DNA of 19,978 nucleotides from Rodentolepis nana (taxonomy: Eukaryota; Platyhelminthes; Cestoda; Cyclophyllidea; Hymenolepididae), in the NCBI GenBank assembly GCA_900617975.1, contig UZAE01012484.1:1-19978 (forward strand), read 5' to 3'. This document shows, in pieces, positions 50 to 19,978 of the stretch. The notes beneath the pieces are model-generated. The model worked only from the letters and a program-made list of their open reading frames with translations, ran no database searches and was not told the DNA's origin. The stretch's first letter is position 1, and each line of letters starts with the position of its first letter. Position numbers and translations under genes: made by a program.

Positions 50-1136
50 CCAGCGTTTAGTTCAGCCCAATCAATCACGATTATCGCTCTCAGACTCGCC
101 TTCGAGTAAAAGAGGGTATCTCTCCATTGAAAAGAATAACGTATATTCCCATTTACCTCTTTTACATGAACGCTTAATCACTGTAAATCGACTTCTTCTC
201 CTCATCTAATGCCAAATTTGAAGGCAAAGACGGATCCTTGCTACTGAAAATCGATGCTTATCTAAAAGCGGAAAAAAATGAGAATTTATTGCAGATTACA
301 AATTTACGAGGATTAATGTGTGCACAGCCACTGAGTTGCTCTTCCTTTGATTTTCGAAAAATGTATTCTGATTTATTTCTGGTGATGTTGCTTTCTGATT
401 TAGTCTTAAGCCTATCTCATTCGTATTTTAAGAACTGACGATTTCTTGCATTATGTTTGTTAAAATCATTCAGACAAAGTCAGTTAATTCAATATTTATT
501 GATAATTTTTGTTTGAACTTGCAAGCTCAAAGGCCTTGGGTGTTTTGTTTTGCAATATCTCAGATATTTGTAAAATTTTTGCATAAATGTATTTACTTTC
601 AATGTCATCCGATAATATTAAGTCTAAAATGTAAAAAATATCCAGCATAAAATTTTATCAAAATGTAATAGTACAAATCAAAAATAAGGTTCAAATTTGC
701 AGTATTCTCATAAAATGGGTTTAAATAAACTCTAGAATGAAGCAGTTGGCATATTAATTTGCATATTCTTGAATACTTTACAGGCCACTCATAATACTAC
801 ATATCCATACAATTTTCGTTTTGATTTTATCTTCATTTATAAATTATTTTTTTGCTTTTTGCATGCATGAGAACTTAGACGATCATTCTTTAAGCACTAT
901 ACTTAAAGTAGTCTGAATATATTTGAAAACAGCACATTATGAATGGATGACTGATGACTGATTTTATTTTAATGAAAGCATAAGCTATTCTTTTCTATGG
1001 GACCAAACATAAGCGAATGTTTCTGAAATGATTCCTCTTCCTTGAAACAGCAATTTTAATCGTTAATCAAAATGGAAATCTATATCCATGCTTTCTCTTG
1101 CTGAAATGAAACATTTTAGTTCTGAAGTCATTATTT
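50..1136. other. A+T-rich DNA, nothing recognised
   Basis: Short open frames (238-438, opening with a non-ATG codon, and 453-650) have low-complexity, A+T-driven composition and no motif. I see no repeat shared with the rest of the window and no RNA gene. Confidence 0.6.
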
Positions 1137-1150
1137 ATCTCGATGAATAT

Positions 1151-1477
1151 TTATTTATTTATATCAAATGGCAGACGTTTTGATAGTTATCATTAGCCCA
1201 TTAGTTGACTTCAGACTTCACAGAGAGGAGGAGAAACATCACAGTGAAAAAAATTCGGGCGAGGGAGGGACAGAAGAGTGTTTCAAAGATGTAAAAGAGA
1301 CAGACACAAAGGTAGAAAAAAGGTGAGGCGAGTACTGTTGAAGTGATCGGATTTGACATACAGTGAGGTGATGGTAGTTTGAAGTGAGAAGTCAACTGCC
1401 GGTTAATAGACTTGTGTGCTGTATGAGTATACGTTACCCAGGGTGCACCATGTGGAGGTAAGTCTATCCCACACCAC
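1151..1477 (-). mobile_element. Element S copy B, essentially full length, 14-bp TSD
   Basis: Read on the minus strand, this copy runs from the head (ATAGACTTACCTCCACATGG near 1470-1445) through a pyrimidine-rich body to the tail and a (TAAA)n run at 1151-1165. It is flanked by an exact 14-bp direct repeat, ATCTCGATGAATAT, at 1137-1150 and 1478-1491. That fixes both ends and shows insertion by a retrotransposition-type mechanism with the A-rich end as the 3' end. Its CCACGTGG core has become CCATGTGG on the plus strand. A 92-codon open frame on the minus strand here has no protein-like features and is incidental. Confidence 0.92.
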
Positions 1478-2845: not shown

Positions 2846-3447
2846 TATATCAAATGGCAGGCTTTATAATATTTATCACTAGCCCTTTAATTGACTTCAG
2901 GCTTCACAGGATGGAAGGAACATCAAAGTGAAAAAGGTCGAGAGGGAGGGGGAACAGGAGAATGTTTTAAAGATATAAAGGAGGTAGGCACAAAGGTAGA
3001 TGAAAGGTGAGGTGAGTACTGTGGAAGTGGTCGAATATAGACAAAGGTGAGGTGAGTACTGTAAAAATAGTCGAATATGATATAGAGTGGGGTGATGGTA
3101 GTTTGAAGTCAGAAGTCAACTGCCGATCAATAGACTTTTTGCAAGTCAGAAGTCAACTGCCGATCAATAGACTTTTTTGTCTTTGAAGTCAGAAGTCAAC
3201 TACCGTACAGTGGGGTCATGGTAGTTTGAAGTGAGAAGTCAACTGTCGTTAATAGACGGGATCATGGTAGTTTGAAGTCAACTGCCAGGTAATTGACGGG
3301 GTAGTTTGAAGTGAGAAGTCAACTGCCAGTTAATATAATTTTTTGTGAAGTGAGAAGTCAACTGTCGGTTAATAGACTTTTTTGCCGTATGAGTATACGT
3401 TGCCCAAGGTGCACCACGTGGAGGTAGGTCTATCGCACACCCAAGTA
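2846..3447 (-). mobile_element. Element S copy C, internally expanded to ~600 bp
   Basis: The copy has a normal tail at its left end and a normal head at its right end, but its length is nearly double the usual ~320 bp. The extra length is tandem repetition in the body (3101-3384, listed separately) plus a second copy of the GGTGAGGTGAGTACTGT segment (3006-3022 and 3046-3062). Flanking direct repeats AAATAAATGATTATT (2831-2845) and AAATACATGATTATT (3448-3462) match at 14 of 15 positions. The whole expanded structure therefore lies inside one insertion event. Confidence 0.9.
3101..3384 (-). repeat. Minisatellite-like tandem array inside element S copy C
   Basis: On the plus strand the motif AGAAGTCAACTGCC followed by AATAGACTTTTTTG, normally present once per element, recurs about seven times at spacings of roughly 37-43 bp. 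Occurrences of AGTCAACT start near 3114, 3151, 3194, 3237, 3276, 3317 and 3356. Units are imperfect, and two include a copy of the neighbouring GGGGTCATGGTAGTTTGAAG segment. This points to several rounds of slippage, unequal exchange or template switching. Confidence 0.85.
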
Positions 3448-3462
3448 AAATACATGATTATT

Positions 3463-3799
3463 ATCCAGAGTCTTGATAATAGTAATACCTACTTAAAAAA
3501 ATTCCTCTTATAGTAGCGACAGATTCATTTTAACTTTTAAACAGATATCTGCCACAACTTGGCAAAAGTAAAAGAAAAAACCCTTATTTCCTTCTAAAAA
3601 CTCTTTAATTTACAAGCGTTTGCTGACATATTTAGTGACTAAGGTATCGATTTTAATAACCAATAAAGTGAATTTTTAAAGTTTGTCAAAATCATTAAGT
3701 GGATAATATGTTATTTGACATATTAATTCAGAGCTTTCTTGAATCTTCGAAATATATATTTACATTATTCCATTTCATGAACTTTATTTCTTTTGCCAA
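3463..3799. other. A+T-rich DNA between copy C and the RNase H relic
   Basis: If the relic at 3800 were part of a longer LINE, reverse transcriptase motifs would be expected here on the plus strand. None is seen, so the relic is truncated at its 5' side or its upstream part has decayed beyond recognition. Confidence 0.55.
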
Positions 3800-4385
3800 T
3801 TGACAATCAATGTCAACTATCCTGTAAATCAATGGCTCCAAGTTTTCACTGATGGGTCATATGTAGAAAACCAAGCAAACTTTGGTGCAGGAGCTTACTC
3901 TGAACTATTCTCTCTCGAAGCAGCAGCGGGGCACAATAGATCCACATTAAAAGAAAAAATAGGGGCCATTATGATAGCATTAGGCCAATTATCTTGCCTG
4001 GATACGAAATTCACCAAAGCGGTGATACTTTCGGGCTCATAGTCAGCAATAAATTCAATTGGAAACAGAGAGCCACCGAAAACAGTCGATATATACGAAT
4101 TTTTAAAACTCTATCAGTTGCTGAGAGAAAAAACAAAACAGTACTTTTGCACTGGTTCAATGGAAATAATAAATATACCTTTGTGGTAAAAGGCACTGAT
4201 AAATTGAAACTGGAAGCCTTACATTAACCATTTATTTCAAAAATTGCAAGTGTACTACGTTTCGATGCCACAATTGTTGCAATACACAAAGCTTTCAAAT
4301 GTTAGATATCTGCGGATATATAAGTAGAAAAGTTAAATACATTGGCACTTTAGGATTGAAAACAGGATGCTAATTAGATCATATT
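3800..4385 (+). pseudogene. Degenerate LINE RNase H domain fragment (frameshift and stop)
   Basis: The first frame (3800-4039) opens with a non-ATG codon and reads WLQVFTDGSYVENQANFGAG. TDGS is the first catalytic aspartate motif of the RNase H domain found in I-superfamily LINE polyproteins. Further on come ELFSLEAAAG and KFTKAVILSGS, where LINEs usually have AVILSDS, so the catalytic Asp appears to be Gly. A TAG follows at 4040-4042. The same frame then continues as LKLYQLLREK to about 4130. A one-base loss in the A-run at 4125-4131 shifts the reading to NKTVLLHWFNGNNKYTFVVK, ending near 4227. A weaker match, LGLKTGC then stop then LDHI (4348-4385), resembles the LRTGHDCLAKHL segment of the LINE at 8551-9154, so the fragment may reach that far. 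No reverse transcriptase is visible upstream and no TSD was found. This is an old, non-functional relic; the RNase H identity is secure and the downstream end is uncertain. Confidence 0.8.
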
Positions 4386-6034: not shown

Positions 6035-6048
6035 GTGACTTAACTATT

Positions 6049-6560
6049 TATTTATTTCAAATGGCAGGCGTTTTGATATTTATCATCAGCCATTTAGCTG
6101 ACTTCGGGCTTCACGGAGGGAAGGTTCATCAAAGTAGCCGAAAGTCGAGGGGTGGGGAACAGAAGAGCGATTCACAGATGTAAAAGAAGCAGACAGACAC
6201 AAAGGTAGAGAAAAAGGTAAGGTGAGTACTATGAAAGTAGTCGAATATGACAACCAGAGGGGTCGTGGCAGTTTGAAGTGAGAAGTCAAATGCCGGTTAA
6301 TAGACATTTTGCCGTTAACTGCCAGTTAATAGACTTTTTGCCGTATGAATATAACGAAAGCCGAGTGATAGACTTTTTTGCCGTAAGAAAATACGCTGCC
6401 CAGGGTGCACCACGTGGAGGTAAGTCTATCGCACACAAACTTCCGGTTAATAGACTTTTTACCGTATGAGTATACGTTTCCCAGGGTGCACCACGTGGAG
6501 GTAAGTCTATCGCACACCCACCAGGGTGCACCACGTGGAGGTAAGTCTATCGCACACCCC
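6049..6560 (-). mobile_element. Element S copy D with three head modules, 14-bp TSD
   Basis: Tail and body are on the left, and at the right (5') end the head module occurs three times. An exact 14-bp repeat, GTGACTTAACTATT, flanks the whole 512-bp structure (6035-6048 and 6561-6574), so it is bounded as one insertion. This copy belongs to the subgroup with AGCCATTTAGCTGACTT and TATTTC next to the tail, shared with copy K. Two overlapping open frames of 60-80 codons arise only from the repeated heads and are not protein-like. Confidence 0.92.
6400..6557 (-). repeat. Triplicated 37-bp head module of element S
   Basis: The plus-strand module CCAGGGTGCACCACGTGGAG plus GTAAGTCTATCGCACAC occurs at 6400-6436, 6481-6517 and 6521-6557. 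The three copies appear identical by eye. The first two are separated by a further piece of element (GGTTAATAGACTTTTT and TATGAGTATACG); the last two are only 3 bp apart. Identity among the units, against 10-20 percent divergence between copies elsewhere, suggests recent duplication or gene-conversion-like copying. Confidence 0.9.
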
Positions 6561-6574
6561 GTGACTTAACTATT

Positions 6575-8537: not shown

Positions 8538-8550
8538 CGCATCAAACATT

Positions 8551-9154
8551 TATTTATTTATTTCAAATGGCAGGTTTTATGATATTTATCATTAGCCCTT
8601 AACTTTTGACTTCAGCTTCCCCCATGGGTGGGGGGTACATATATAGCAGTTAATTAATAGCAGTTCATTAGCAGTCTTCTTGCTTCCCAGTATCTCTGGC
8701 TTTCCGTCGTTGTCTTTAGGGCTGGACACCGAATCAGGTGGGCCTTCTCCATTTCCTCCTGTAGGTTACATAGTGGGCATGTGGATTGAGTGTATACTCC
8801 CAATCTGTGAAGGTGTTTTGCCAAGCAATCGTGCCCGGTACGTAGTCTAAACTCAGCAACGGCTTCAATTCTTGGCCAGTCGGCTATGTCGGAGAATGCC
8901 ACTGTCCAATGTTTCTCCTTTGTTTGAGCTTTAATTTCGTTGCACCTTGAGGTATGGAATTCTCTCCTGATTAAGGCCTTCATTGTGTGGAAAGACATCG
9001 GCCGGTCCATGCATTGCAAAATCGTTGTCCCCTTCTTAGCATGTGTGTCAGCAAGTTCATTGCCTTTAACGCCACAGTGACCAGGAATCAATTGTAGGAC
9101 CACTGTTTTGTTTTTCTCTCTCAGCAGCTGATAGAGTTTTCTACATTCCTTTAT
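8551..9154 (-). mobile_element. 5'-truncated LINE (RNase H-bearing, I-superfamily type), 13-bp TSD
   Basis: A 604-bp 3' fragment of a non-LTR retrotransposon. From its 5' side it contains the end of an ORF2-type polyprotein (RNase H plus a Cys/His tail), a short 3' UTR with a C-rich/G-rich inverted repeat (8618-8636), and a tail ending in AAATAAATAAATAAAT. An exact repeat, CGCATCAAACATT, flanks it at 8538-8550 and 9155-9167. The last ~65 bp (8551-8619) match the 3' tail of element S, including GGGCTAATGATA and CCTGCCATTTGAAATAAATA. The presence of RNase H downstream of the expected RT is typical of I-superfamily clades; the exact clade cannot be named from this fragment. Confidence 0.93.
8654..9154 (-). 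pseudogene. C-terminal LINE ORF2 fragment: RNase H end and CPLC...H..C segment
   Basis: The open frame runs from an ATG at 9166 to TAA at 8654-8656 (170 codons). Its first four codons (M-F-D-A, 9155-9166) are target-site DNA, so LINE-derived protein starts at residue 5. Residues 11-45 include KLYQLLREKNKTVVLQLIPG and HCGVKGNELADTHAKKG, the last RNase H block, with the conserved His and the GNELAD Asp. Residues about 108-125 read EFRLRTGHDCLAKHLHRL. Residues about 132-153 read CPLCNLQEEMEKAHLIRCPA, a probable zinc-binding CCHC-type segment common at the C terminus of RNase H-bearing LINE polyproteins. The endonuclease, reverse transcriptase and the N-terminal part of RNase H are missing because the insertion is 5'-truncated. 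The frame has no internal stop, which suggests a fairly young insertion. It could not encode an active enzyme, and I see no promoter for it. Confidence 0.9.
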
Positions 9155-9167
9155 CGCATCAAACATT

Positions 9168-9541: not shown

Positions 9542-9596
9542 GGGATGTGCAGTAGACTTACCTCCATGTGGTGCAACCTGGGCAACGTATAATCAT
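9542..9596 (+). mobile_element. Element S copy O, head only, ends at the N
   Basis: In sense orientation this is GGGATGTGCAGTAGACTTAC, then CTCCATGTGGTGCAACCTGG and GCAACGTATAATCAT, matching the first ~55 bp of element S. The match stops exactly at the ambiguous base at 9597 and unrelated A+T-rich sequence follows. No TSD could be paired. Every other truncated copy whose 5' end can be seen has lost its 5' end, so a copy that keeps only the 5' end is exceptional and is best explained by an assembly gap. Confidence 0.82.
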
Positions 9597-10109: not shown

Positions 10110-10430
10110 GGGTTGTGCGATAGACTTACCTCCACGTGGTGCACCCTGGGCAATGTATACTCATACGGCAAAAAAGTCTATTATTCGGCAGTTGACTTAT
10201 GACTTCAAACTACCATGACCCCACTGTACGTCATTTTCGACCACTTTCACAGTACTCATTTTAACTTTTTCTCTACCATTGTATCTGTCTCTTTTACATC
10301 TTTAAACCACTTTTCCGTTCCTCCCTATCGACTTTTTTCACTTTGCTGTTCCTCCTCCCCTCTATGAAGCCCGTAGTCAACTTAAGGGCTAATGATACCT
10401 ATCAAAACGCCTACCATTTGACATAAATAA
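10110..10430 (+). mobile_element. Element S copy F, full length, plus orientation
   Basis: A complete 321-bp copy readable directly on the plus strand, useful as a reference for the family. The head is GGTTGTGCGATAGACTTACC, followed by an intact CCACGTGG and AAAAAAGTCTATT. The body is C+T-rich with CTGTCTCTTTTACATC, and the tail is GGGCTAATGATACCTATC ending in CATAAATAAAT. Flanking repeats ATATTGTAATTAT (10097-10109) and ATATTTTAATTAT (10431-10443) match at 12 of 13 positions. Confidence 0.9.
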
Positions 10431-11463: not shown

Positions 11464-11577
11464 ATTTATTTATTTATATCGAATGGCAGGCGTTTTGATA
11501 GTTATCATTAGCCCTTTAGTTGACTTCAGGTTTCACAGAGGGGAAGGAACATCAAAGTGAAAAAAGGGTAGATTAGC
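11464..11577 (-). mobile_element. Element S copy G, severely 5'-truncated
   Basis: Only the tail and the first ~60 bp of adjacent body are present (TTATTTATATCGAATGGCAG through CATCAAAGTGAAAAAAGGG on the plus strand). The repeats ATATTTACAATGT (11451-11463) and ATGTTTACAATGT (11578-11590) match at 12 of 13 positions. The truncation therefore happened at insertion and not by later deletion. Confidence 0.87.
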
Positions 11578-12439: not shown

Positions 12440-12760
12440 TTCTTTATATCAAATGGTAGGCGATTTGATGGTAATCATTAGCCCTTTAGTTGACTTCAGG
12501 CTTCACTGAGGGAAGGAACATTAAAGTGAAAAAAGTTGATAGGGAGGAGGGAAGAGAAGAATGTTTCAAAGATGTAAAAGAGACAGACACAAAGGTAGAG
12601 TAAAAAAGAGGTGAGAACTGTGGAAACCGTTGAGGATGACATATAGTGGAGTGATTTTAATTTGAAGTGGGAAGTCAACTGCCGGTTAATAGACTTTTTT
12701 ACCGTATGAGAATACGTTACTCAGGGTGCACCACATGGAGGTAAGTCTATCGCACACCCC
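12440..12760 (-). mobile_element. Element S copy H, full length, 13-bp TSD
   Basis: A 321-bp copy between exact repeats ATAAATAAAATAT (12427-12439 and 12761-12773). Head, body and tail are all present. The plus-strand CCACGTGG core is CCACATGG here. It sits between blocks X1 and Y1 of the segmental duplication and has no counterpart in the second unit, so it probably inserted after the duplication or was lost from the other unit. Confidence 0.9.
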
Positions 12761-12909: not shown

Positions 12910-13056
12910 TGCTGTTGTTTTAATAGGTATCACCATGCACGTGTTTATTCATTTATTCCAAATGGTGGGCTTTATGATACATATCATTAACCCTTTAGCT
13001 GACTTCGGGCTTCACAGAGGAGAGGAACGTTTAAGTTAGAAAAATTCGAGAGAGAA
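12893..13056 (-). mobile_element. Element S copy I, degraded and truncated, with a doubled tail
   Basis: A weak tail remnant (12893-12932, TTTTTATCAAATTG to AATAGGTATCACC) is followed by a better one beginning at about 12943 (TTTATTCATTTATTCCAAAT, then GATACATATCATTAACCC). The element breaks off at about 13056 inside the body (AAAATTCGAGAGAGAAG) and joins block X2 directly. The first remnant occupies the same position relative to Y1 as copy J does relative to Y2. The second may be a nested insertion or a local duplication. No clean TSD is visible. Confidence 0.72.
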
Positions 13057-13584: not shown

Positions 13585-13704
13585 GCGGATGGGAATATTA
13601 TAGATTCTGACAAATCTAAATGTGCATTTATTGCCCATTCAATTCTGACGCTTGCACTCATATTTACAAACAAGCATTCTTCTAAAGTTTCATTTATATC
13701 AAAT
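13585..13704 (+). repeat. Segmental duplication, block Y2
   Basis: Second copy of block Y, running into element S copy J. X2 and Y2 are ~475 bp apart. X1 and Y1 are only ~60 bp apart once copy H is removed, so one unit has lost, or the other gained, about 400 bp between the blocks. Confidence 0.75.
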
Positions 13705-14009
13705 GGATGACGCTTTGATAGTTATCATTAGCCCTTTAGCTGACTTCGGATTTCTCAGAGGGTGAGGAACATCAAATTGAGAAAAATTCGAGAGAGGAGC
13801 AGAAGAGTGATTCAAAGAAGTAAAAGAGACAGACAGACACAAAGATAGAAAAAAGGTAAGCTGAGTACTGTGAAAGGGTTCGAACATGGCATACAGTGGG
13901 TGATAGTGGCTTGAAGTCAGAAGTCAAATACCGATTGATAGATTTTTTTGCCTTTTGAGTATACGTTGCTCAGGGTGCACCTCGCGGAGATAAGTCTATC
14001 GCACACCCC
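13689..14009 (-). mobile_element. Element S copy J, full length, older
   Basis: Complete from the tail (TCATTTATATCAAATGG on the plus strand) to the head (AAGTCTATCGCACACCCC). Flanking sequences GCATTCTTCTAAAGT (13674-13688) and GCAATCTTACAAAGT (14010-14024) match at 12 of 15 positions, a decayed TSD consistent with greater age. In sense orientation it contains GTTCGAACCC (near 13876-13885), resembling a pol III B box; other copies have a poorer ATTCGACCAC at this place. Confidence 0.87.
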
Positions 14010-14979: not shown

Positions 14980-15198
14980 TTATTTATTTATTTCAAATGG
15001 CAGGCGTTTTGATAGTTATCATTAGCCATTTAGCTGACTTTGAGGAGGAACATCAAAGTGACAAAAAGTCGATAGGGGGGAACAGAATAATGGTTCACAA
15101 ACAAAAGACAGAGAAAAGGTAAGATGAGTACTGCGAAATTGGTTGAATATGGCATACAGTGGGATAGTTTGAAGTCAGAAGTCAACTGCCGGTTATCA
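14980..15198 (-). mobile_element. Element S copy K, 5'-truncated, 11-bp TSD
   Basis: Tail and body are present but the whole head (about 85 bp) is missing. The element stops after AACTGCCGGTTATCA. The repeats GACGGCAATAT (14969-14979) and GACGGTAATAT (15199-15209) match at 10 of 11 positions, so the missing head reflects incomplete reverse transcription. It shares AGCCATTTAGCTGACTT with copy D. Confidence 0.88.
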
Positions 15199-15209
15199 GA
15201 CGGTAATAT

Positions 15210-16673: not shown

Positions 16674-16686
16674 TATTTAAAAGGTG

Positions 16687-16992
16687 GGATGCGCGCTAGA
16701 CTTACTTTCACGTAGTGCACCCTGGGCAACGTATACTCATATGGCAAAAAAAAGTCTATTAACCTGCAGTTGACTTCTAACTTTAAATTACCATCACCCC
16801 ACTATTTGTCATTCGATCAATTCACAGTACTCGCCTTACCCTACTCTCTGCCTTTGTGTCTTTTACACCTTGGAAACACTCTTCTGTTCTTCCCCACCTC
16901 TCGAATTCTCTTCACTTTGATGTTCCTTTCCCCTCTGTGAAACCTGAAGTCAATTAATGATAACTATCAAAACGCCTGTCATTTGCAAACAG
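16687..16992 (+). mobile_element. Element S copy L, near full length, plus orientation, 13-bp TSD
   Basis: Sense orientation, starting GGATGCGCGCTAGACTTAC and ending in a shortened tail (AATGATAACTATCAAAACGC, CTGTCATTTGCAAACAG) without the usual TAAA run. The exact repeat TATTTAAAAGGTG flanks it at 16674-16686 and 16993-17005. A few bases between body and tail (the AGGGCT segment) are deleted. Confidence 0.9.
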
Positions 16993-18656: not shown

Positions 18657-18960
18657 TTTATTTATTTATATCAAATGGCAGGTGTTTTGATAGTAATCAT
18701 TAGTCCTTTAGTTGACATCAGGCTTCACAGAGAGGAAGGAACATCAAAGTGAAAGAAGTTGAGAGAGGGGGAACAGAGGAGTGTTTCCAAGATGTAAAGG
18801 AGACAGACATAAAGGTAGAAAAAGGTGAGATGAGTACTGTGAAAGTAGTCCAATATGACATAGAGTGTGGTCATGGTAGTTTGAAGTCAGAAGTCAACTG
18901 CCAGTTAATAGACTTTTTGCCGTATGAGTATACGTTGACCTGGGTGCACTAAGTGGGGGT
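18657..18960 (-). mobile_element. Element S copy M, head shortened by ~17 bp, TSD present
   Basis: Tail, body and most of the head are present, but the terminal GTCTATCGCACACCCC (plus strand) is missing after GTGGGGG. The repeats TAAGGATAATAT (18645-18656) and TAAGGACAATAT (18961-18972) match at 11 of 12 positions, marking a slightly 5'-truncated insertion. A 67-codon open frame (18749-18952) lies entirely inside the element and is not evidence of a protein. Confidence 0.88.
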
Positions 18961-18972
18961 AAGGACAATATA

Positions 18973-19745: not shown

Positions 19746-19978
19746 TTATTTATTTATTTATTTCAAATGGCAGGTGTTATGATAGGTATCATTAGCCCTT
19801 TAGTTGACTTCGGGCTTCACGGAAAGGAAGGGGAACACCAAAGTGGTAAAAAATCGAGGGGAGGGACAGAATAATGATTCACAGACGTAAAAGAGACAGA
19901 CAGACACAAAGGTAGAAAAAGGTGAGGTGAGTACTGTGAAATAGTCGAATATGAAATGCGATGGGGTCTTGGTAGTTT
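19746..19978 (-). mobile_element. Element S copy N, cut by window edge
   Basis: Starts with a TTTATTTATTTATTTC tail on the plus strand, followed by the conserved tail with an extended stem-loop (19779-19792) and the body up to GGGGTCTTGGTAGTTT. The head lies beyond the window, so no TSD can be paired. Confidence 0.88.

Follow-up and report, generated by a model that had tools for sequence, protein, structure and literature searches.

The stretch of Rodentolepis nana DNA analysed here (the window, 19,978 nt) lies on contig C2682 of the 107-Mb assembly G000. At positions 8551-9154, on the minus strand, it carries a 5'-truncated copy of a LINE with the end of the RNase H ORF, the 3' UTR, a tail (8551-8619, minus strand) common to this LINE and to a short element, here called S, and AAATA repeats. 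The copy is flanked by an exact 13-nt target duplication, CGCATCAAACATT, found at 8538-8550 on its 3' side and at 9155-9167 on its truncated 5' side, compared to at most 9 nt in 132 mismatched pairs; the piece is thus a single 5'-truncated insertion. Matches to its ORF elsewhere accordingly begin at residue 3 or later, mostly at residue 4 or 5, the first residues of this ORF belonging to the flank. The S consensus aligned with positions 8619-8563 of the minus strand (84% over 58 nt), and the AAATA repeats continue to 8551. A second piece of this LINE, from within its RNase H (73% over 79 aa), lies at 3743-4042 on the plus strand; alignment of the S consensus to the window gave no tail match alongside it.

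Element S recurs along the window on both strands. Full-length copies were found at 10110-10421 (plus), 12449-12760 (minus, with a 13-nt target duplication ending at G1), 13699-14009 (minus) and 16686-16985 (plus, with a 13-nt target duplication), together with a nearly full-length copy at 1164-1477 (minus, with a 14-nt target duplication) and one lacking the first 15 nt at 18671-18963 (minus). The copies at 12959-13052, 14993-15201 and 11479-11565 (all minus) are 5'-truncated, the last being a tail end; the copy at 19763-19978 (minus) is cut by the window end and an S tail stands at the window start (1-36, plus). Repeated head and body segments are present in the copy at 2850-3443 (minus), and the copy at 6057-6560 (minus), which includes S body and tail, is a multi-headed mosaic. 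An isolated 5' fragment of the S/LINE head lies at 9542-9596 (plus). The initial annotation had described a tail match between the LINE and S, which was borne out by the alignment of the LINE 3' consensus with S 247-311 (score 77, compared to at most 25 in 500 shuffles). Its extension to the S copies of the window holds for the 13 copies or pieces that reach the tail and leaves aside the fragment at 9542-9596, which is head only. The accompanying statement that the rest of the two elements is unrelated is true only of the 5'-truncated copy in the window: family-wide, the first 97 nt or so are common as well, the S head aligning to the LINE head with a score of 125, where 500 shuffles reached no more than 25.

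The tail belongs to the RNase H-bearing LINE family itself. It forms the 3' end of all 30 fetched copies of this LINE, which are the best of 150 scored RNase H matches (3078 candidates) and include the window copy as L009; the middle part of the tail is missing in one of them (L014). LINE 3' ends without the tail, which the annotation had named as refuting its reading, were not found among these 30 copies. A 106-nt stretch spanning the 3' UTR and the tail, used as a query for which 40 first-look candidates of 2207 were scored, recovered itself and 39 other genome places at 91-96%, with one shorter match at 85%. The LINE exhibits the features of a non-LTR retrotransposon, namely an APE endonuclease, a reverse transcriptase (RT), an RNase H scoring 23 and 22.4 bits, just below the Pfam cut-off of 25.8, and target duplications. 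Among the best 120 of 876 matches to the RT of copy L012, R. nana proteins are the closest (60-95% identity), followed by Hymenolepis microstoma (65-78%) and then by spiders (about 43-60%). The R. nana protein P0015 has no identical counterpart in G000, the best matches being 64% at full length and 97% in part. COX1, translated with the flatworm mitochondrial code, comes nearest to tapeworms, mostly cyclophyllideans, among the named records, with at most 91% identity in a 90%-clustered database.

The S consensus, built from 26 of the 29 copies with a tail (three longer than 420 nt were omitted), measures 311 nt, and the copies are 83-98% identical to this consensus (median 92%). S consists of a LINE head of about 97 nt, a middle of about 150 nt and a LINE tail of about 65 nt: the alignment pairs S 1-97 with LINE 1-96 and S 247-311 with the end of the LINE, and the middle (96-250) gave no match above shuffles, on either strand, in six incomplete LINE interiors. 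In known tail-sharing SINE/LINE pairs, the common 3' tail serves for recognition by the LINE RT and the SINE head derives from tRNA, 5S or 7SL RNA with pol III boxes. S differs from these in that its 5' end too is common to the LINE and that no pol III head was detected: neither the window nor five S loci yielded a tRNA gene, the S consensus contains no exact-consensus match to a pol III A or B box, and the Rfam 5S and 7SL models matched nowhere in the window with E of 1 or less. By these tests, S therefore falls outside the canonical SINEs. A 5S rRNA match of 101.5 bits was observed at positions 341-459 (minus strand) of locus L008, where it adjoins an S copy with repeated heads. We counted 16 S-body clusters in 116 kb of loci that were chosen for the LINE, are non-random and in part overlap; plain scaling to 107 Mb gives, crudely, about fifteen thousand copies, that is, an order of ten thousand.

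Element S opens with a predicted HDV-like ribozyme. The Rfam scan of the window returned five S heads for RF02682 (32.8-42.3 bits, best E 5.8e-5) and two for RF00094, and no head in the window reaches the cut-off of either model (44 and 50 bits, respectively). The best match, at 3372-3441 (minus; 42.3 bits), falls in the copy with repeated segments; the match at 10112-10181 (36.2 bits) lies in the full-length copy at 10110-10421, and that at 12689-12758 (minus; 32.8 bits) belongs to the copy at 12449-12760, in which the presumed catalytic C is lost. Genome-wide, where 61 places of 25,212 loose candidates were scored, RF02682 gave 59 matches, 37 of them above the curated cut-off of 44 bits, with a top score of 54.5 bits; the same model had no match in 14 control genomes, and the exact head pattern had none in viral contigs. 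The 30 best RF02682 loci all continue into S sequence, two of them (L046 and L058) via repeated head pieces, and a tail lies within reach in 29 of the 30 fetched S loci, the exception being L062.

We found also that the LINE opens with the same predicted HDV-like ribozyme. The ribozyme sequence is present in all 29 fetched LINE 5' ends, of which 20 and 7 came from an N-terminal query (150 scored matches, 900 candidates) and the others are C4530 and C4382 (L021). Twenty-seven begin at the first nucleotide (GGGG), and in L090 and L099 some 10 nt are missing at the start. In C4530 the endonuclease ORF has its first Met 32 nt downstream of the ribozyme. Flanks upstream of the GGGG vary between copies; in L079 (C2848) and L081 (C2421) an inverted tail piece stands directly before the first G of the LINE head, perhaps by insertion beside an older copy or by inversion. 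The S and LINE consensus sequences are 93% identical in the ribozyme and 90% in the tail. The four LINE heads scanned scored 29-41 bits, under both Rfam cut-offs. Nucleotide 41 of the core is A (GAC) in 26 of 27 LINE heads and mostly G (GGC) in S, so that S seems to come closer to the Rfam HDV models than the LINE heads do. LINE copies of about 2 kb, among them C4530:1347-3550, C4382 (L021) and C2522 (L010), keep the ribozyme, the start of the endonuclease, the RNase H end and the tail; the RT is mostly absent in C4530 and C4382 and partly in C2522, and such RT-deficient copies are possibly mid-sized non-autonomous forms.

The fold was examined in an alignment of 45 heads (26 S and 19 LINE), the 72-nt rows among 65, the 20 rows of other lengths being omitted. 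In the HDV double-pseudoknot fold (P1, P2, P3, P1.1 and P4), 93.2% of the cells were paired, compared to 28-49% when the fold was slid along the alignment. Apart from nt 41, the core hardly varies between S and LINE, and nt 60, the C after P4 that we take to be the catalytic C, is C in at least 90% of the 45 heads; it is lost in the LINE copies L087 and L093 and in the S copy at 12689-12760 of the window. Covariation was no better than in shuffles, with one pair showing two-sided change, the 45 sequences being too alike. The top-scoring S copies, L039 and L040, fit RF02682 in a P1 register that lies 2 nt inside the element end. This register, which starts from G3, was tried and rejected: its P1 cells were paired in 72.5% of cases compared to 93.7% for the G1 register, which is preferred on this ground. 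A descriptor of the fold was loosened twice, the middle version matching 14 of the 45 heads and the final one 19 (10 of 26 S and 9 of 19 LINE, 18 of them beginning at G1), and Markov sequence gave no match with any version (16 million strand-bases for the final one). The remaining 26 heads fail the final descriptor, and no window head matches its first or once-loosened version, which indicates that many copies have decayed. The tail had no covariation support, RNAalifold returned no tail hairpin, and in single-sequence folding two LINE tails had z values of -1.97 and -1.83 and the one S tail a value of +0.42, so that we make no structural claim for the tail.

Target duplications mark the ends of both elements. 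For the LINE, we used 13 copies in which the head and the RNase H end follow each other correctly on a single contig and of which many carry internal deletions; both ends were found in 12, the head of the thirteenth (C4337) being truncated. Exact duplications of 10-17 nt were present in 10 of these 12 copies, each ending just before the first G; C2323 had only 7 nt and the flank of C4111 was too short. Mismatched pairs (132) gave at most 10 nt, which equals the shortest real duplication (C3871). For S, duplications of at least 8 nt were found in 17 of 29 copies compared to 53 of 812 mismatched pairs, and those of at least 11 nt in 16 of 29 compared to none of 812. The offset is 0 or -1 for eleven of these 17, and the remaining six lie 1-5 nt off; the duplication of L048 is a TA repeat, and for L054 and L059 the tail employed was probably that of another copy. 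Of 11 S copies in the window, taken without regard to their ribozyme score, four show duplications of 13-14 nt with an offset of 0 or -1; in the other seven they measure only 5-10 nt. HDV ribozymes cleave just before the first nucleotide of P1, and RF00094 sets the start of P1 at the same G where the insertions begin.

Several S copies contain more than one head. In the window mosaic at 6057-6560, an S-head fragment (6521-6560), an S head (6438-6519), a LINE-type head (6353-6436) and further partial heads (6275-6353), all on the minus strand, lie within one 14-nt target duplication (plus-strand GTGACTTAACTATT, 6035-6048), whose 5' side (6561-6574) ends at head nucleotide 1. The LINE-type head is LINE-like from at least nt 46 to nt 87, with TTTTCT in the P4 loop followed by ATCACTCGGC, and its 5' part is S-like. 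The mosaic in locus L037 is built differently but likewise includes a LINE-type head; read by eye, its duplication matches at 12 of 13 positions, and the exact-match test gave only 6 nt. Repeated units inside one 14-nt duplication were found in L046. L040 and L058 also carry repeated units, around which no duplication was found, the units of L040 joining about nt 60 to nt 21-24, and L008 has repeated units with no tail in reach. Jumps of the RT from one template to another would account for these copies simply; recombination between DNA copies in a parent element may have produced them instead.

On this sequence evidence, S is very probably a non-autonomous retroelement that is driven by the RNase H-bearing LINE and carries both of its cis-signals. 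The tail being the LINE family's own, this family is the natural driver of S. The initial annotation had also named this LINE as the driver, and the family-own tail (30 of 30 copies) and the mosaic S/LINE copies speak for that part of the proposal; its picture of S as an ordinary tail-borrowing SINE is not supported, as no tRNA or pol III head was found and the LINE 5' end with its HDV-like ribozyme is common too. RNA of S and of the LINE would be transcribed, probably by read-through from flanking promoters, and the 5' ribozyme would cut the transcript just before the first G, the position at which the elements are seen to end. Every RNA would then begin at element nucleotide 1, whatever the insertion site. 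The LINE endonuclease-reverse transcriptase would recognise the tail of about 65 nt with its AAATA repeats and copy the RNA onto a nicked target, a step in keeping with the family-wide tail and the target duplications observed. On reaching the 5' end, or when stalled in the folded ribozyme, the enzyme may sometimes jump to another S or LINE RNA, and such template jumps would yield the multi-headed copies.

That a single LINE copy acquired an S tail by nested insertion or an assembly accident has practically no chance of being right: all 30 LINE copies end in the tail, 39 genome places match at 91-96% and the window LINE copy sits within a single target duplication, which refutes this explanation. 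The 5' motif could instead be a relic that no longer cuts and perhaps acts as a promoter or translation element, head and tail being conserved only through descent from recent master copies. The low Rfam scores of the LINE, the lack of covariation and the 26 of 45 heads failing the descriptor would agree with a relic, but the insertions have their 5' ends exactly at the predicted cleavage G and the core is nearly invariant except at nt 41, and we regard this reading as unlikely.

The origin of S, on which alone the following alternative departs from the LINE-driven reading, is less settled. S could have arisen from an older LINE subfamily purely by internal deletion, as a SIDE, in which case the middle would be diverged LINE sequence or derive from a variant that was lost or not fetched. 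Both ends of S are common to the LINE, internally deleted LINE copies exist (C4530, with most of the RT gone) and Drosophila SIDEs are thought to arise in this way (PMC3414825); against it, S 96-250 has no match above shuffles in six incomplete LINE interiors, even though identity to the LINE reaches 93% and 90% at the two ends. A deletion origin is a real possibility that we place somewhat short of even chances. We also put forward, tentatively, that S might be a chimeric, ribozyme-released SINE in which an unrelated RNA of about 150 nt was joined to the self-cleaving LINE head and the LINE tail used for recognition; head and tail alone would then suffice to make an RNA mobile in an animal, reaching an order of ten thousand copies with no pol III promoter, and the multi-headed copies would reflect stalling of the RT within the folded ribozyme (around nt 22) and its jumps between RNAs of S and of the LINE.

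The proper comparison for S, as a LINE-driven element, is with ribozyme-headed non-autonomous elements such as NARTc, RIME and SIDE: its 5' ribozyme end and its 3' end, both common with the LINE, are traits of the SIDE/NARTc type. In the trypanosomatid L1Tc/NARTc and ingi/RIME/SIDER groups, the HDV-like ribozyme is Pr77, and SIDER2 has two tandem heads (PMC4035085). As in L1Tc/NARTc, a LINE with APE endonuclease, RT, RNase H and a 5' HDV-like ribozyme is accompanied by short non-autonomous partners having the same 5' ribozyme and LINE ends (PMC4035085). The present elements differ in their tapeworm host and in the S middle, unmatched in the LINE pieces compared; a promoter role is claimed for trypanosomatid Pr77 and not for the S heads, and, unlike in SIDER2, the heads of S recur in an irregular pattern, in some copies with LINE-type heads among them. 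The Drosophila R2 and R2/R1 SIDEs, which belong to the rDNA-specific R2 and R1, likewise combine a ribozyme head with a LINE 3' end and are mobilised in trans; template jumping is discussed for them, and SIDEs of non-LTR elements are called rare (PMC3414825); S differs from them in being dispersed and abundant, with variable flanking sites and an extra middle. HDV-like ribozymes also occur at the 5' junctions of R4, Dong, Baggins1, L1Tc and RTE, with the cut placed, as predicted here, at the element 5' end; in the sections of that report drawn on here, no non-autonomous partner comparable to the S/LINE pair is described (PMC3774820). The schistosome hammerhead-ribozyme repeats are a further case of flatworm repeats connected with self-cleaving RNA, with another ribozyme class and an apparently satellite-like organisation (PMC8490949).

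In the papers drawn on here, HDV-ribozyme-headed short elements are described for trypanosomatids and, rarely, for Drosophila rDNA (PMC4035085, PMC3414825). The literature searched, with most subscription journals outside its scope, yielded no report of an HDV-like ribozyme in flatworms or cestodes, and relative to that literature only, a dispersed and abundant ribozyme-headed short element in an animal would be new. The H. microstoma genome paper gives transposable elements as about 23% of the assembly, LINEs as 1% and 14.8% of the repetitive sequence as unclassified, and the word ribozyme is absent from its main text.

SINEs are usually defined by their pol III head. The S/LINE pair would suggest that self-cleavage can stand in for the promoter-defined 5' end of a SINE. 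The cut site and the dependence on the tail are testable predictions, and the pair may help to classify tapeworm repeats.
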